A stretch of 64,000 nucleotides of DNA from Deltaproteobacteria bacterium. GTDB lineage: Bacteria; Myxococcota_A; Polyangia; Haliangiales; Haliangiaceae. The DNA lies in assembly GCA_025353585.1 (NCBI GenBank), contig JANXOM010000160.1, positions 1 through 64,000 on the forward strand, written 5' to 3'. Below the pieces are notes generated by a model. It ran no database searches and was not told the origin of the DNA. It saw nothing but the letters and a program-made list of their open reading frames with translations. The translations under genes and the position numbers were made by a program. Of this stretch, positions 9,394 to 35,923 are shown piece after piece. The stretch's first letter is position 1; the number at the start of each line of letters is the position of its first letter.

Positions 9394-10118
9394 GCGACGC
9401 GGCCGGCCCCGACGCCGCCAGCAAGCTCGGCAGCGGCCAGATGTTCGACGCGATCGCCGCGCGCTACGACTTCGTCAATCGCATCCTCTCGCTCGGCCTC
9501 GACCAGGGCTGGCGCCGGCGCACCGTCAAGGAGCTGCAGCTGGGCGACAAGCCGCGCGTGCTCGACGTGGCGACGGGCACGGGGGATCTCGCGATCCAGA
9601 TCGCGAAGTCGCGGCCCGGCGCGACGGTGATCGGGCTCGACCCGTCGGCGAAGATGCTCGCCATCGCCGCCACGAAGGTCGAACGCAAGCACCTCGGCGA
9701 CCGCATCACGCTAGAGCAAGGCGACGCGCAGGCGCTGCCGTACGAGAGCTGCTCGCTCGACGCGGCGACCATCGCGTTCGGCATCCGCAACGTGCCGGAC
9801 CGACCGCTCGGCCTGCGCGAGCTCGCGCGCGTCGTGCGCCCCGGCGGCCGCGTGTGCGTGCTCGAGCTCGGCGAGCCCAAGCAGGGCTTCTTCGCGAGCG
9901 CGGCGCGCTTCCACACGCGCAAGGTCGTGCCGCGGCTCGGCGCGCTGCTGTCCGGGGCGCGCGAGTATCGGTATCTGCAGACGAGCGTCGCGGCGTTCCC
10001 GCCGGCGGCCGAGTTCGCCGATCTCATGCGCGCGAACGGGCTCGATGTCGTCGCCGTCATCCCGCTGACGTTCGGCGCGTGCACGCTGTACGTCGCGACG
10101 CCCACGGAGGCGCAGTGA
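9390..10118 (+). CDS. menG: Demethylmenaquinone methyltransferase MenG/UbiE
   Basis: MFDAIAARYDFVNRILSLGLDQGWRR...LDVATGTGDLAI; ATGA overlap with upstream gene. Confidence 0.94.
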   Translation: MSDAAGPDAASKLGSGQMFDAIAARYDFVNRILSLGLDQGWRRRTVKELQLGDKPRVLDVATGTGDLAIQIAKSRPGATVIGLDPSAKMLAIAATKVERKHLGDRITLEQGDAQALPYESCSLDAATIAFGIRNVPDRPLGLRELARVVRPGGRVCVLELGEPKQGFFASAARFHTRKVVPRLGALLSGAREYRYLQTSVAAFPPAAEFADLMRANGLDVVAVIPLTFGACTLYVATPTEAQ

Positions 10119-11509
10119 CGCCGCAGGTCGCCTCGGCGCTGACGACCGACCGGAGCGACCCCGCGTGGTCGCTGGCGGACGGGCTGGCCGCGGCCGCGCG
10201 CGGCGACGGCATGATGTTCGTCGCGCTGCCCGCGCCGATCGTGCCGGTGACGGCGGTCCTCGCGGCGTGGCCAACGAGCGCGCCGGCGGTGGCGTGGTCC
10301 CACGGCGAGCTGTCGCTCGTCGGGCTCGGCGTGGCGTACGAGCTGCGCGGCGCGGGCGAACAGCGGTTCGCAGAGGTCGTCGCGACGGCGCAGCGGCTCG
10401 GCGCCGACCGCGCCATCGTCGGCGGCGCGGCGGTGCCCACGTCGGCGCTCGGGTTCGCGCGGCCGCGGTTCGTCGGCGGCGCGGCGTTCGCGCCCGGTAC
10501 GGCCGACCGCGCGCCCTGGACCGGCTTCGGCGACGCTTGGTTCGCGCTGCCGCGCTGGACGTACGTGCACGACGGCGCGCACGCGTGGCTCGTGCTCGCG
10601 GTCGAGCCGCGCGAGGCCGCGGACGAGCGCTGGACGGCCGAGCACGCGGTGATCCGCGCCGCGCTCGACGCGCCGGCGCTGACGAAGCGGCAGCCGCCGA
10701 TGCGCGACGCGGTACGCGGCGACGCGGCCACGTGGCGCACGCAGGTCACGGACATCACCGATGCCATCGCGCGCGGCGAGTTCGCGAAGATCGTCGCGGC
10801 GCGGACCTGCGTGCTGACCCTCGTCGGGGACGCCCGGCCGGCGGATCTGCTGGCGGCCCTCGACGAGCGCCACGCGGAGTGCGCGCGCGTGCTGGTGCGG
10901 CCGCCCGGCGGCGGCGCGCTGATCGCGGCGACTCCCGAGCGGCTCGTGCGGCGCGACGGTGACACCGTGTCGTGCGACGCGCTCGCGGGCACGATCGCGC
11001 GCGGCGATGCGGCCAGCGAGACCTTGCGTGCGAGCGAGAAGGATCGCCGCGAGCACGCGCTGGTGGTGAGCATGATCGCGGGCGCGCTCGAGTCCGTCGG
11101 CGCCGACGTCACGCTGCCCGCCGAGCCCGGCATCCGTCAGCTGCGCCACGTGCTGCACCTCCACACGCCGATCCGCGCCACGCTGCGCGAGCCGCGCCAC
11201 CTGCTCGAGCTCGCCGCGCGCCTGCACCCGACGCCAGCCGTCGGCGGCACCCCGCAGCGCGAGGCCGTCTCCTGGATCGCGTCCCACGAGCCCGTCGCGC
11301 GCGGCTGGTACGCCGCGCCCGTCGGCTGGTTCGACCTCGACGGCAACGGCGAGCTCTGCGTCGCGATCCGCTCCGGCCTCCTCGCCGGCCCCCGCGTGCA
11401 CCTCTGGGCCGGCGCCGGCATCGTCGCCGGCAGCGACCCCGACCGCGAGCTCGCCGAAACCGACGTCAAGCTGCGCGCCATGCTCGGCGCCCTGGGCGCC
11501 CCCGCATGA
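10115..11509 (+). CDS. menF: Isochorismate synthase MenF
   Basis: GTGA overlap start; chorismate-binding enzyme C-terminus (HPTPAVGGTPQREA, GWYAAPVGWFDLDGNGELCVAIRSGL). Confidence 0.92.
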   Translation: MTPQVASALTTDRSDPAWSLADGLAAAARGDGMMFVALPAPIVPVTAVLAAWPTSAPAVAWSHGELSLVGLGVAYELRGAGEQRFAEVVATAQRLGADRAIVGGAAVPTSALGFARPRFVGGAAFAPGTADRAPWTGFGDAWFALPRWTYVHDGAHAWLVLAVEPREAADERWTAEHAVIRAALDAPALTKRQPPMRDAVRGDAATWRTQVTDITDAIARGEFAKIVAARTCVLTLVGDARPADLLAALDERHAECARVLVRPPGGGALIAATPERLVRRDGDTVSCDALAGTIARGDAASETLRASEKDRREHALVVSMIAGALESVGADVTLPAEPGIRQLRHVLHLHTPIRATLREPRHLLELAARLHPTPAVGGTPQREAVSWIASHEPVARGWYAAPVGWFDLDGNGELCVAIRSGLLAGPRVHLWAGAGIVAGSDPDRELAETDVKLRAMLGALGAPA

Positions 11510-11598
11510 GGGGACGGAGTCAAAGTTGTCAAGGCTGGGGACAACAGTCCCCGAACGATCCCGCGTACTTACCCGGGGACGGAGTCAAACTTGTCAAG
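11510..11598 (+). repeat. REP-like intergenic element copy A (two 23-bp direct repeats GGGGACGGAGTCAAA[G/C]TTGTCAA, 65 bp apart, with internal hairpin)
   Basis: Repeats at 11510-11532 and 11575-11597; internal GGGGAC-AACA-GTCCCC hairpin at 11537-11552. Related copy at 34925-35014. Confidence 0.8.
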
Positions 11599-11612: not shown

Positions 11613-13316
11613 GTGAGCAGCGCCGCGGTGCAGACCCTGTGGGCCGAGCTGATCGCCGCGACCCTCGCCGACGCCGGCGTGCGGCTCGTGGTGCTGAGCC
11701 CGGGCTCGCGGTCGACCCCGCTGGCCGCCGCGTTCGCCGCCGAGCCCCGCCTCGAGCTCGTCACGATCATCGACGAGCGCGCCGCTGCGTTCTTCGCCCT
11801 CGGCGCCGCCCGCGCGTCCGGCACCCCGGCCGCGATCGCCTGCACCAGCGGCAGCGCCGCCGCCCACTACCTCCCCGCGATCGTCGAGGCCAGCGCGGCC
11901 GGCGTGCCGCTCGTCGTCCTCACCGCGGACCGCCCGCCCGAGCTCCTCGCGTGCGGCGCGAACCAGACCATCGACCAGGTGAAGCTGTACGGCACCGCCC
12001 CGCGCGGCGCCTTCGACCTCGGCGCGCCCGAGGGCAGCGACCTCGCGTTGCGCGCGCTCCGCCGCAAGATCGCGCAGGCCGTGGCGCTCAGCCGCGGCCC
12101 CCACGCCGGCCCCGTTCACCTCGAGGTCCCGCTCCGCAAGCCGCTCGAGCCCGCCGCGCCCACGACCGACGCCGAGCACGCCGCCGCCCGCACGGTCGCC
12201 GCGTTGCGCGCGCAGCCGCTCCTCGCCGCCGCCCCGCGCCTCGTCGCCGACCCCGCCGCTCTCGCCGCCCTCGCCGCCGCGATCACCGCCGAGCCCCATG
12301 GCGTCATCGCCGCCGGCGCCCTGCCCGCCGGCACGACGCGCGACGCCGTGTTCGCCCTCGCCGCGCGCACGGGCTATCCGATCCTGGCCGAGACCGGCAG
12401 CCAGCTCCGCCTCGGCGCCCACGCCGCCGCCGTGACGCTCGTCGACCACGCCGAGCTCGTCGCGATCGCCCCCGCGCTCGTCCTCCAGCTCGGCGCGGAG
12501 CCGCTCGTCGCGCTCGCCGCGCCCGCCCGCTACGTCCTCGCGCCGCATGCGTGGCAGGACCCGGACTCGTCGGCGCGCGGCGTGCTCGTGGGCGACCTCA
12601 CCTCCACGCTCGCCGCCCTCACGGCCCGCGTTCCCGAGCGTGGCTCTGGCGAATGGGCGGCCGTGTGGCGCGCCGCCGATGTCCGCGCCGCCGCCGCCCT
12701 CGACCGCGCCCTCGCCGCGCACCCGCGCAACGAGGTGTCCGCCGTCCGCGCCGCTATAGACGCCGCGCCGACCGCGCAGCTCCAGCTCGGCAACTCCCTC
12801 CCCGTCCGCGTCGCCGACCTCGCCGCGCGCAGCGGCACCGGCCTCGCGCGCGCCGTGCTGACGCAACGCGGAGCGAGCGGCATCGATGGCCTCGTCGCCT
12901 CCGCCGCGGGAGCCACGCGCGCCGGCCCCGTGCTCCTCGTCCTCGGCGATGTCAGCTTCGCCCACGACGTCGGCGGCCTCCTCGCCGCGCGCGAGGCCAC
13001 CGCGCCGCTCGCGATCGTCGTCATCGACAACGCCGGCGGCCGCATCTTCGACGGCCTCCCGATCGGCCGCGCCACCCTCGCGCCCGACACCTACGCGCGC
13101 TGCTTCACCACGCCGCCCGGCCTCGACCCCGTCGCCATCGCCCGCGCGTTCGGCGCGCGCGGTGTCCTCGCCGAGACGCCCGCTGCCGTCGCCGCCGCCG
13201 TCACCGCCGCGCTCGCGCAGCGCGGCCCCACCGTGATCCACGCTCCGGTCAGTCCGACCGGCGCGCACGACGTCAAGCGCACCGCGCGCGAGTTGCTTGC
13301 AGGAGAGCCGTCATGA
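11613..13316 (+). CDS. menD: 2-succinyl-5-enolpyruvyl-6-hydroxy-3-cyclohexene-1-carboxylate synthase MenD
   Basis: GTG start; [58 protein letters not shown]. Confidence 0.93.
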
Positions 13317-32318: not shown

Positions 32319-33020
32319 ATGGAGCCCGAGATCCGAGTGGTCTACGTCGAGGACGACGAACGCCTGGCGCGCCTCACTTCGACGTACCTGACCTCCCACC
32401 GCATCGAGGTCCACGTGGTCGCCCGCGGTGACCTCGCCGTCGCCGAGGTGTTGCGCGTCCGGCCTGACGTCGTGCTGCTCGACCTGATGCTCCCGGGCGC
32501 CGATGGCCTCGAGGTCTGCCGGCAGCTGCGAGCGCGGGTCGACGTCCCGATCATCATGGTGACGGCGCGCGGCGAGGAAGCCGACCGCGTCCTCGGCCTC
32601 GAGGGCGGCGCCGATGACTACGTCGCGAAGCCGTTCCAGTCGCGCGAGCTCGTCGCGCGCATCCGGGCGCAGGTGCGCCGCGCGCGCGGTGAGGCCGGCC
32701 CTCGTCCCGAGCGCATCGAGGTCGGCCCGCTCGCGATCGACACGTCGGCGATGACGGTCACGATCGGCGGCAAGCCGCTGACGCTGACGACGATCGAGTT
32801 CGCGCTGCTCCACGCGCTCGCGCAGCGGCCGGGTCGCGTGCTCGGCCGCGAGCAGCTGCTCCAGCTCCTGCATGGCTCGGCCGACGAGGCGTTCGACCGC
32901 TCGATCGACGTGCTCGTCTCGCGCGTGCGCGCGAAGGTCGAGGACGATCCGCGCAACCCGAAGCTGCTCAAGACCGTCCGCGGCGCCGGCTACATGCTCG
33001 CGGCGGCCGGGGAGAGCTGA
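32319..33020 (+). CDS. OmpR/PhoB-family response regulator
   Basis: VVYVEDDERLARL, VLLDLMLPGADGLEV, YVAKPF; winged-helix C-terminus (RVLGREQLLQLL...DVLVSRVRAKVEDDPRNPKLLKTVRGAGYML). Confidence 0.95.
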   Translation: MEPEIRVVYVEDDERLARLTSTYLTSHRIEVHVVARGDLAVAEVLRVRPDVVLLDLMLPGADGLEVCRQLRARVDVPIIMVTARGEEADRVLGLEGGADDYVAKPFQSRELVARIRAQVRRARGEAGPRPERIEVGPLAIDTSAMTVTIGGKPLTLTTIEFALLHALAQRPGRVLGREQLLQLLHGSADEAFDRSIDVLVSRVRAKVEDDPRNPKLLKTVRGAGYMLAAAGES

Positions 33021-34462
33021 TGCGCTTCGGGCGCTCGCTCTCGTCGCGGCTCGTGGTGCTCGGCATCGTGCAGCTCTTGCTGCTCAACGTCGGGGCCGTG
33101 GTGATCTTCATCGCAGAGGGCCCGCATGGCGAGGCGTACCCGGAAGACGCGTTGCGCGGGCCGACGATGGAGCGGCTCGCGCAGGTCGTCGAGCAACCGA
33201 CCGCGCTGGCGGACGAGCTCGACTCGCTGCACGCGGCGCGGATCGAGATCTCGATCTACGACGAGGCCCGTCAGCTCGTCGCGACGAACGTGGAGCCGCC
33301 GCTCGCGATCCCGGAGCGGCATCACGGGCACGGGCCCGGCGACCGCCCACCAGAGGACCACGCGCCACCGGGCGCCCCGCCCGATGACCATGGCCTGCCG
33401 CCGCCGGGGTTCGGCGGGCCCGGCGACCGCGGTCCGCCGCTGCTGCCTCCCGACGGTGCGCGCCAGCACGTGATGCTCCTCGGCCTGCCGATGCACGGCG
33501 CGCGCGGCTTCCTCGTGGCGCGCGGCGTCCATGGCGCGGGCCCTGGCTTCATCGGGCCCGGCCTGACGCTCGGGTTCGGCTTGCTCGTGCTCGTGGTCGG
33601 TGCGCTCATCTCGGCCCGCTGGATCCTGCGGCCGATCGAGCAGCTGACGCGCACGGCGCGCGCGCTCGGCGCCGGTGATCTCACGGCGCGCAGTCGCCTC
33701 CTTCGGGGTGACGAGATCGGCGAGCTCGGCACCCGGCTCGACGAGATGGCCGAGCGTGTCCAGACGTTGCTCGCCTCCGAGAAGGAGCTGCTCGCGAACG
33801 TGGCGCACGAGCTGCGCACGCCGCTCGCGCGCATCGGCGTGGCCCTCGACATCGCCGGCGAGGGTGATGCCGTGGCGGCGCGCGCGTCGCTCGCAGAGAT
33901 CCACATCGACGTCACGGAGCTGTCCGCGATCGTCGATGACATCCTCGTCGCCATGCGGTTCGAGGTCGGCGCCAACGCGAGCCTCCCCCTGCACCGCGCC
34001 AAGAGCGACCCGGCCGACATCGCGCGCGCGGCGGCGGACCGCGTGCGTGCCCGTCACCGCGACCGGCCGCTCGCGGTGCGGATCGCCGACGAGCTTCCGC
34101 GCATCGACGTCGACCCGATGCTGTTCCGCCGCGTGCTCGACAACCTGCTCGAGAACGCGCACAAGTACACGCCGGATCACGCGTCTGCGATCGACCTCGC
34201 CGTGTCGCGCGATGGCGGCGACGTGGTGTTCGAGGTCCACGACCGTGGTCTCGGCATCGCGCCCGACGATCTTCCGCGCGTGTTCACCGCGTTCTTTCGC
34301 AGCGAGCGCAGCCGCTCGCGCGAGACGGGTGGCGTGGGCCTCGGCCTGACGCTCGCGAAGCGGATCGTGGAGGCGCACGCCGGCGCGATCACCGTCACGA
34401 GCCGCACGGACGCCGGGACGATCGTGCGCGTGGCGGTGCCCGCGGCCGTCGAGACGAGCTGA
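33020..34462 (+). CDS. Sensor histidine kinase (HAMP, HisKA, HATPase_c)
   Basis: LLANVAHELRTPLARIGVALD H-box, DNLLENAHKYTP N-box, DRGLGIAPDDLPRVF, GGVGLGLTLAKRIVEAHAG. Confidence 0.95.
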   Translation: MRFGRSLSSRLVVLGIVQLLLLNVGAVVIFIAEGPHGEAYPEDALRGPTMERLAQVVEQPTALADELDSLHAARIEISIYDEARQLVATNVEPPLAIPERHHGHGPGDRPPEDHAPPGAPPDDHGLPPPGFGGPGDRGPPLLPPDGARQHVMLLGLPMHGARGFLVARGVHGAGPGFIGPGLTLGFGLLVLVVGALISARWILRPIEQLTRTARALGAGDLTARSRLLRGDEIGELGTRLDEMAERVQTLLASEKELLANVAHELRTPLARIGVALDIAGEGDAVAARASLAEIHIDVTELSAIVDDILVAMRFEVGANASLPLHRAKSDPADIARAAADRVRARHRDRPLAVRIADELPRIDVDPMLFRRVLDNLLENAHKYTPDHASAIDLAVSRDGGDVVFEVHDRGLGIAPDDLPRVFTAFFRSERSRSRETGGVGLGLTLAKRIVEAHAGAITVTSRTDAGTIVRVAVPAAVETS

Positions 34463-34924
34463 CACGCGGACGCGGCGGCCGAGGATCGCGCCGCCCCCCG
34501 GCGGCCCCGGCTGATTCGACGGCCATCGCCACCGTGCGTCACCCGGCGGGCCAGGCCACCATCATCCCGTGTCGCCACCGCCCGGCCGATCGGGCGACGG
34601 CTCGTCGGCTCGAGCGGGGGGCCGCAGGCTCGGCGCGGACGCTGCGCGATCGCCGGGCCGATGGGGTTCCAGTCGGGGCGCCATCGCGCATCGCCTACCG
34701 GAGCAATGCGGCGCGCCCCGGTCGTTGGAGTTGTTACGGTTGGCGCCAGGAAGACCGCTCACCTGCGGGACCGTCCAGGTCCCGACTCCGCGCGCTGGCC
34801 CGTATGGATCGTGGTGTAGCGGCGCGCGCCGAGAGTCTCGCGGACCGACGTGCCAGCGCGCTCGATCGCCGACGTGGCGCGTCGGCTCCATGGCCGCGTG
34901 GGCCACGTGGCGCTCGTAGCCGGC

Positions 34925-35014
34925 GTTGACAAACATGACAGCGTCCCCGCTTAAGTGCGGGCAATGACTCGGATCACGCCGATCACCAAAGGTGACAAAC
35001 GTGACAGCGTCCCC
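34925..35014 (-). repeat. REP-like element copy B (two direct repeats [G/T]TGACAAAC[A/G]TGACAGCGTCCCC, 66 bp apart)
   Basis: Units at 34925-34948 and 34991-35014; reverse complement GGGGACGCTGTCA(T/C)GTTTGTCA matches the copy A pattern, and both interiors share C-ACTTA- near the second unit. Confidence 0.8.
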
Positions 35015-35015
35015 G

Positions 35016-35501
35016 TTAGGGGCAGCCGCAGCAGCGGCCGCGGGCGGCGGTGCAGCTCTGGTCGCCGGCGGTGCAGCGGCCGGCGGCCCAGGTGTCCCCC
35101 GGTAGCTGCTGGGCCAGCTCGCAGATCTTGGCGGCGTCGGCGCAGATGGCGTCGGCGAGCGTGCAGGTGTCGCTGCACGCGTCCGTCTTCGCGGGATGGC
35201 ACGTCGGATCCGGCGTCGGCGGCTGCGGCGTGACCGCGAGCGGAGATGGGGGGCCGGGGCCGAGGTCCACCGGCTCGGGCAGCCCGAGCTTCTCGCGCGC
35301 CGCGGCGAGCTCGCGATCGAGGCGCTGGATCTCACTGCGCCCGTCGGTGCCGCCCGGCGTGACCATCGCGGGGACCACGCCCGCGGCGGCCGGAGCGCGG
35401 CCGCCCGCCGCACACGCCGCGATCGCCGCGGCGCCGCACACGCCGGCGACCACGCCCACCAGGCCGGACGGCAGCCGCCCCGTCACGGCGCTCCCGAGCA
35501 A
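35016..35501 (-). CDS. Cys-rich exported protein (paralogue 2 of tandem pair)
   Basis: C-terminal 10-Cys pattern C..ACSDTCTLADAICADAAKICELAQ...CTAGDQSC...RCCGC. Confidence 0.75.
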   Translation of the reverse strand: MLGSAVTGRLPSGLVGVVAGVCGAAAIAACAAGGRAPAAAGVVPAMVTPGGTDGRSEIQRLDRELAAAREKLGLPEPVDLGPGPPSPLAVTPQPPTPDPTCHPAKTDACSDTCTLADAICADAAKICELAQQLPGDTWAAGRCTAGDQSCTAARGRCCGCP

Positions 35502-35923
35502 TCACAGCAGCGCTGCTTGCCCTCGCGACACGACGCCTTCGCGCTCGCGCACTTCTGCTGCGCGTAGTCGTCGCCCTTGCCGAGCTCGTCGGCGAGCGTG
35601 CAGATCGTCTCCGCGTTGTCGCAGATCGCGTCCGACAGATTGCAGACATCGCTGCACGCCGCCGGCACGGTGTGCCCGACCGGGCAGACCTTTGCGGCCT
35701 CGTGCGTCGTCGCGTTGCGCACCGAGAACAGCGACTGCGGCGTCGGCTCGAGATCCATGTGCGCCTCGCGCCGCCAGTCGCGGATCTGCGTCCACAGCGC
35801 CGTGATCTCGTTCTCCTTGGGGAACGACGTCGGCGGCGGCCGCCCGCACGCCACGACGATCGCCGCGATCGCCGCGCCTGCCGCGAGCCCGCTGCCGATG
35901 CCCGCGCTGCGCCCGCGGCTCAT
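35483..35923 (-). CDS. Cys-rich exported protein (paralogue 1 of tandem pair)
   Basis: Lipobox-like IAAIVVAC; CPVGHTVPAACSDVCNLSDAICDNAETICTLAD...CASAKASC...RCCDC, co-aligning with the downstream paralogue. Confidence 0.75.
   Translation of the reverse strand: MSRGRSAGIGSGLAAGAAIAAIVVACGRPPPTSFPKENEITALWTQIRDWRREAHMDLEPTPQSLFSVRNATTHEAAKVCPVGHTVPAACSDVCNLSDAICDNAETICTLADELGKGDDYAQQKCASAKASCREGKQRCCDCSGAP

Follow-up and report, generated by a model that had tools for sequence, protein, structure and literature searches.

The repeat at positions 34925-35014 of the window (the whole analysed stretch of 64,000 nucleotides), here called copy B, is with a probability of about 0.8 a lone arm, composed of two units, from a dispersed family of miniature mobile repeats of the TIRtron kind, which belongs to a REP-type Y1/HUH transposase. 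The family falls into three classes in the 8.0-Mb genome (437 contigs), each with its own transposase gene, and its arms lie preferentially at gene 3' ends in one orientation. At least one lone arm, copy A of the same window, separates two genes that are neighbours in relatives.

Architecture of copy B and of its family

Copy B is read on the minus strand and consists of two copies of the pattern GGGGACGCTGTCANGTTTGTCA within 34927-35014, each 22 bp long and recognised both in the sequence and by pattern searches of the genome: the outer unit 1, GGGGACGCTGTCACGTTTGTCA (35014-34993), and the inner unit 2, GGGGACGCTGTCATGTTTGTCA(A) (34948-34927), at a spacing of exactly 66 bp. The 44-bp spacer between them (34949-34992) is of fixed length and, as judged by comparing spacer and unit identities, hypervariable among copies. 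Within this spacer, GAGTCATTGC (34960-34969) is the copy B form of the mid-motif AAYNATTTC, which was taken from the sequence logo and placed by eye, and CACTTAAGC (34949-34957) is the form of the CTTRNCC block that precedes unit 2 in the class 1 logo. The TAA stop codon of a small Cys-rich gene (35016-35501, minus strand, from the gene calls) is followed by a single C and then by the GGGG of copy B; the predicted start of the repeat one base after this stop codon is thus seen both in the sequence and in the ORF calls. The region 35016-35923 (minus strand) holds two adjoining small Cys-rich genes, which are paralogues of about 38-40% identity. On the inner side, 464 bp without a called gene separate copy B from a histidine-kinase-like gene (33020-34462, plus strand), assigned by sequence reading and by its response-regulator neighbour, which is convergent to the Cys-rich gene. 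The surroundings of copy B, in which we looked for an orthologous empty site, are not conserved in relatives. A degenerate left arm was searched for near copy B and none was found. A search of the window for the central hairpin TGTCCG-N4-CGGACA, described below, also gave no hit, so that nothing marks the window copies as remnants of elements with a centre.

The original prediction had described copy B as the second member of a family, with the same two-unit architecture as copy A. Both spacings, 66 bp in copy B and 65 bp in copy A, were reproduced exactly, and the C-ACTTA- block said to be shared by the two copies is real, being part of the CTTRNCC motif before unit 2 that occurs in most arms. 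The common architecture supports the assignment to one family, but the two copies fall in two sequence classes, copy A in class 2 (GGGGACGGAGTCAAAGTTGTCA) and copy B in class 1 (GGGGACGCTGTCANGTYTGTCA). A search of the own genome with the first pattern, allowing up to 3 mismatches, gave 109 units, and a search for two-unit arms gave 75, compared to none of either for the reversed control patterns; the class 3 pattern GGGGACGGTGTARNACYTGTC gave 111 units, again with none for its control. Units and arms are therefore not due to chance. About 120 arms were examined, and the genome-wide statistics given here rest on the loci that were fetched. The spacing of the units is 66 bp in all class 1 arms, 65 or 66 bp in class 2 and 65 bp in 37 of 39 class 3 arms. 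Arms occur alone, as both window copies do, as inverted, inward-facing pairs or bracketing a gene. The inverted pairs enclose either a centre of 50-100 bp (about 75 bp), usually with a TGTCCG-n-CGGACA hairpin, or lie 0.6-1.1 kb apart. One inverted element was met in opposite orientations with the same flank at two contig ends (L040, C9:8739-8987; L079, C144:11-193), which reflects either a real inversion between inverted units or a flip in the assembly.

Transposase genes and insertion of lone arms

For each class, one transposase gene was found between inverted arms of the same class, on contigs C315 (class 1), C97 (class 2) and C432 (class 3). The products of about 320-350 aa carry the HUH motif and the Tyr of Y1 transposases, and the HUH histidines as well as the Y of AYIHNNPV are invariant across 11 homologues. 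The NCBIfam model REP_Tyr_transpos matches the class 1 product with an E-value of 4e-8 (3.6e-8 unrounded) and the class 2 product with 1e-6, both below the curated cut-off (33 compared to 80 bits for NCBIfam, and 20-22 compared to 23 bits for Pfam); on its own, Pfam Y1_Tnp is too weak a match for class 1 and does not detect class 2. An AlphaFold model of the clade (pLDDT 86.5), for which homologues from MAGs of related Myxococcales and Deltaproteobacteria were used, had the complex of a RAYT with a REP hairpin, 4er8, as its top match in the PDB (E 1.5e-6), followed by IS200/IS605 transposases, among them 2xm3 and 2vjv. The C-termini of the three transposases, ELTNVTASP, RLTTLTPSP and RLTSVTPSL (L119, L058 and L143 on C315, C97 and C432, respectively), are encoded by the other strand of the arm's inner unit, which means that the transposase gene overlaps its own end. 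Six more Y1 transposase genes of the genome (L031-L036, frames of about 255-295 aa) have no GGGGAC arms.

RAYT homologues of 40-47% identity in six relatives (G013, G008, G012, G001, G003 and G004) are flanked by inverted repeats with GGGGAC units of other sequence, and the unit sequence thus differs with the transposase. In most close myxobacterial homologues the flanking repeat is a direct doublet with units 56-67 bp apart, whereas the more distant homologues and those of G028 and G029 carry one repeat at each end. Doublets form a cluster on the tree: the state requires 3 changes compared to 7.3 with shuffled labels, a number as low being reached in 1 of 500 shuffles. The doublet is probably the derived layout, with a likely loss in G028 and G029 and a separate occurrence in L219. 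Other RAYT homologues (L130 on G021:C326; L128 and L144 in G009) are found among clustered repeats of other types, such as CCCGGAGTTAAGCCCTTAA in ten copies or ACCCCTGCGACAGG palindromes in alternation.

That a lone arm is an insertion can be seen from copy A, a class 2 arm (11510-11596, plus strand; units 11510-11531 and 11575-11596) that directly follows the TGA of a menF-like (isochorismate-synthase-like) gene (10115-11509, plus strand) and ends 16 bp before the start of menD (11613-13316, plus strand). In same-genus genomes in which both genes align, the two are adjacent, mostly no more than about 30 bp apart and in many cases with the stop of one overlapping the start of the other; one junction measures about 125 bp, and none of the displayed junctions holds an arm. 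Since this junction is bare or nearly so in relatives and carries an arm in the own genome, the lone arm is an insertion. The same holds for two further gene pairs: PrmA/RsmE junctions are shorter than about 35 bp in nearly all relatives, KamA/QueG junctions measure 2 to about 130 bp, and in both cases the arm starts a few codons before the point at which the upstream gene ends in relatives (PrmA, KamA, menF and menD were named by sequence reading, RsmE and QueG by Pfam). No recently copied pair was seen, the closest class 2 spacers being 84% identical with the exception of one duplicated site, and transposition in progress is therefore not in evidence.

These junctions also bear on a reading of the arms as the termini of cassettes by which host genes are moved. 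Within 0.8-1.3 kb, inward-facing arms of the same class enclose six host genes, including those for RsmE, QueG, a PPTase, a GNAT and an AAA ATPase (L038, L059, L060, L061, L062 and L063), and the clustering is tighter than expected of independent arms. In most relatives, however, PrmA and RsmE as well as KamA and QueG are neighbours without arms; RsmE and QueG were thus not carried in by the arms, cargo is excluded by synteny for both loci tested, and we consider the cassette reading most improbable.

Position at gene 3' ends and the variable spacer

The predicted location of the arms directly 3' of stop codons, in one orientation, was borne out genome-wide. The outer (GGGGAC) side points towards a gene 3' end in 60 of 80 class 1 and class 2 arms (null 0.42, p 1e-9), and class 3, which served as a later independent test, gave 30 of 39 (p 8e-6); as the null was derived from 36 gaps of the window, one site (L040/L079) was counted twice and the genes were called by us with a simple codon-usage caller trained on the window, the exact p-values are rough, while the effect is large. 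When the copies were tabulated by distance and orientation to the stop codon, as had been proposed, 25 of the 80 arms lay -1 to +4 bp from a stop, where 2.2% were expected. Single arms with both neighbours called have the 3' end outside in 18 of 20 cases, and arms between tandem genes are oriented 9 to 1. A preference for gene 3' ends, by targeting or by retention, is hence found in classes 1 and 2 and independently in class 3. Some arms even supply the stop codon: in class 2, the reading frame of the gene frequently extends 49 bp into the arm before it stops (10 cases), which adds a tail such as GTESKLSSLG..P(E/K), and in class 3 the stop often lies within the first unit (-13, four cases). 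Of 16 read-throughs in classes 1-3, 13 are in one phase; for the class 2 arms L059, L061, L063, L064, L067, L073, L074 and L077 the phase is almost constant, although another phase would likewise stop early.

Both targeting and selection are possible origins of this bias. REPs of other genomes are also mostly found near gene 3' ends (PMC3733652), so closeness to 3' ends as such is a known tendency. With a coding fraction of 0.93 in the window (same gene caller), intergenic space is short and surviving insertions would lie near gene ends, which accounts for the closeness but not for the fixed orientation. On the outer strand, the flanks are rich in C, in contrast to ordinary post-stop sequence, which hints at a strand-specific target. 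A candidate target motif at the outer side, CTNACC/CTAG, is strongly enriched, but it is explained by the stop codons and mostly absent from flanks far from stops, which are only C-rich (58% C compared to 21% G, with 37/37 in ordinary post-stop sequence); the flanks gave no motif for a target site that did not depend on the stop codon.

The original prediction had also offered a 3'-UTR function in termination or RNA stability. According to this reading, the arm is an RNA element that ends transcription or protects the mRNA and for this reason follows stop codons in one orientation; the fixed orientation, the nearby stops and a unit conservation far above that of the spacer would fit. However, there is no terminator-like site in 34400-35100 and no Rfam match in the window, none of six single arms folds convincingly better than its shuffles (z -1.9 to +0.9; copy B -1.87), and base-pair covariation was sought within the arm and not found. 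In addition, the outer side has no gene 3' end in about a quarter of the arms, and translation extends into part of some class 2 and class 3 arms. An RNA function is thus unsupported and appears very unlikely. Two outcomes had been named as speaking against the original prediction, a lack of enrichment downstream of stop codons and a lack of covariation or shared structure: the arms are enriched at 3' ends, and covariation is lacking.

In the arm alignment, the mean pairwise identity is 0.50 for the spacer compared to 0.92 for the units in class 1, and 0.58 compared to 0.96 in class 2. The spacers of about 44 bases have a G+C content of 52-58% (51% in class 3) compared to 72% for the window, and the free columns lie at 54-59%. 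Two blocks are recurrent in the spacers: AAYNATTTC (AA-n-n-ATTTC-like) and, directly preceding unit 2, CTTRNCC, which has an invariant second T followed by A or G in 46 of 46 class 1 arms. Left and right spacers of one element (0.535 identity) are no more alike than spacers of different elements (0.520), so they are not kept complementary, and a pooled test for spacer hairpins was weakly positive in classes 2 and 3 and negative in class 1. Old, drifting copies would bring the free spacer columns towards the genomic G+C content and let the units decay, neither of which is seen, and young copies would have similar spacers, whereas the spacers differ. Either lasting selection acts on both units and on the spacer length, or the spacers were different from the start. 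A constant length combined with a variable sequence is an unusual constraint for any mechanism to explain.

Lasting selection would be expected if the arms, spread by the transposase, were now maintained as sites of a host DNA-binding protein and selected for units and spacing. BIMEs of enterobacteria are sites of host DNA-binding proteins. Units that are 92-96% identical and intact also in lone arms, next to spacers that are near-random in many columns and yet of fixed length and lower G+C content, are consistent with such sites, and the core of the spacer motif, TC-N6-TTR, may loosely resemble the TTR half of an IHF site. On the other hand, the binding protein is hypothetical, the same units are absent from relatives, and the unit sequence changes with the transposase. 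We regard maintained host sites as unlikely. Also improbable, and somewhat more doubtful, is that the transposase actively targets translation-termination sites (or transcript 3' ends) and that the hypervariable spacer is made anew at each insertion; in that case a transposon end would be re-diversified with every copy, rather than the spacer drifting later.

Proposed mechanism and comparison with known elements

For the preferred reading, a lone arm of a TIRtron-like mobile family, we propose the following course of events. A full element consists of two inverted arms around a transposase gene or a centre of about 75 bp. The transposase of a class-matched autonomous copy would recognise the paired units, which in the full element would be folded as a long single-strand hairpin, and would then insert copies into the genome. 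Lone arms may have been inserted as such or may be left over after loss of their partner. The insertions lie where they are least harmful, next to the 3' ends of genes and with the GGGGAC side beside the stop codon, several class 2 and class 3 arms themselves providing a stop codon and a short C-terminal tail. The family and its architecture, its link to the transposase, a lone arm between genes that adjoin each other in relatives and the bias in position and orientation at 3' ends are observed. Recognition of the units, the strand chemistry, mobility by the class-matched transposase and the origin of the bias in targeting or selection are the parts of this scheme that we infer. The spread of small repeats is attributed to RAYT-type transposases, which raises the questions of how these move and why the repeats lie at gene ends. 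In the genome analysed here, three families exist in parallel, each with a transposase of its own, and follow a clear orientation rule; junctions in relatives are bare or nearly so, and some arms furnish housekeeping proteins with a stop codon and a short tail. The choice between targeting and selection thereby becomes directly testable.

Among known elements, IS200/IS605, which carry subterminal hairpins and move through excision and insertion of a single-stranded circle, share the Y1 HUH transposase fold; unlike these, the elements described here appear to have true inverted repeats instead of subterminal hairpins, and transposase-free copies far outnumber those with a transposase. REPs, REPINs and BIMEs with their RAYTs (PMC3116915, PMC3733652) are likewise miniature, RAYT-associated, mostly near gene 3' ends and arranged in inverted pairs able to fold as one hairpin. 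Very strong folding was seen only for the full inverted element, which as DNA forms a long hairpin (z -14), as expected from its inverted arms. In contrast to these systems, the doublets here are direct and not only inverted, and lone arms hold two units. REPs are defined as palindromic units of 20-40 bp with a GTAG or CGTC tag, whereas in the units here self-complementarity is limited to 3 bp (GAC-GCT-GTC) and neither end carries GTAG; they are therefore not REPs in the strict sense.

The closest likeness is to the terminal inverted repeats of TIRtrons/TIRYTs (Di Nocera et al. 2013, PMC3733652), which probably correspond to RAYT subclass 2.1 of the 2018 HuH survey (PMC6006769). Like them, the family has a RAYT-like Y1 HUH transposase gene flanked by inverted repeats that start with GGGG(A/T) and are unrelated to GTAG REPs, element-specific transposases and dispersed genomic copies of the terminal repeats, the last being reported for some species. 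The units start with GGGGACG(C/G), and GGGGACGC and GGGGACGG agree with the motif GGGGWSAS, which some TIRs share (PMC3733652), at 7 of 8 positions. Subclass 2.1 is described with a C-terminal DnaA_C/HTH-like domain (PMC6006769); the C-terminal region here gave no Pfam match to it, and the clade model has a helical C-terminal part. The family can hence be placed with the TIRtrons/TIRYTs in most features. It differs in its ends, at each of which two units stand in direct orientation at a spacing of 56-67 bp, with a hypervariable spacer of fixed length between them. To judge from the two papers mentioning TIRYTs, the following features are new: the double-unit ends, with their constant unit spacing and hypervariable spacer; the orientation rule, seen in three families in parallel; and the supply of stop codons by the arms.
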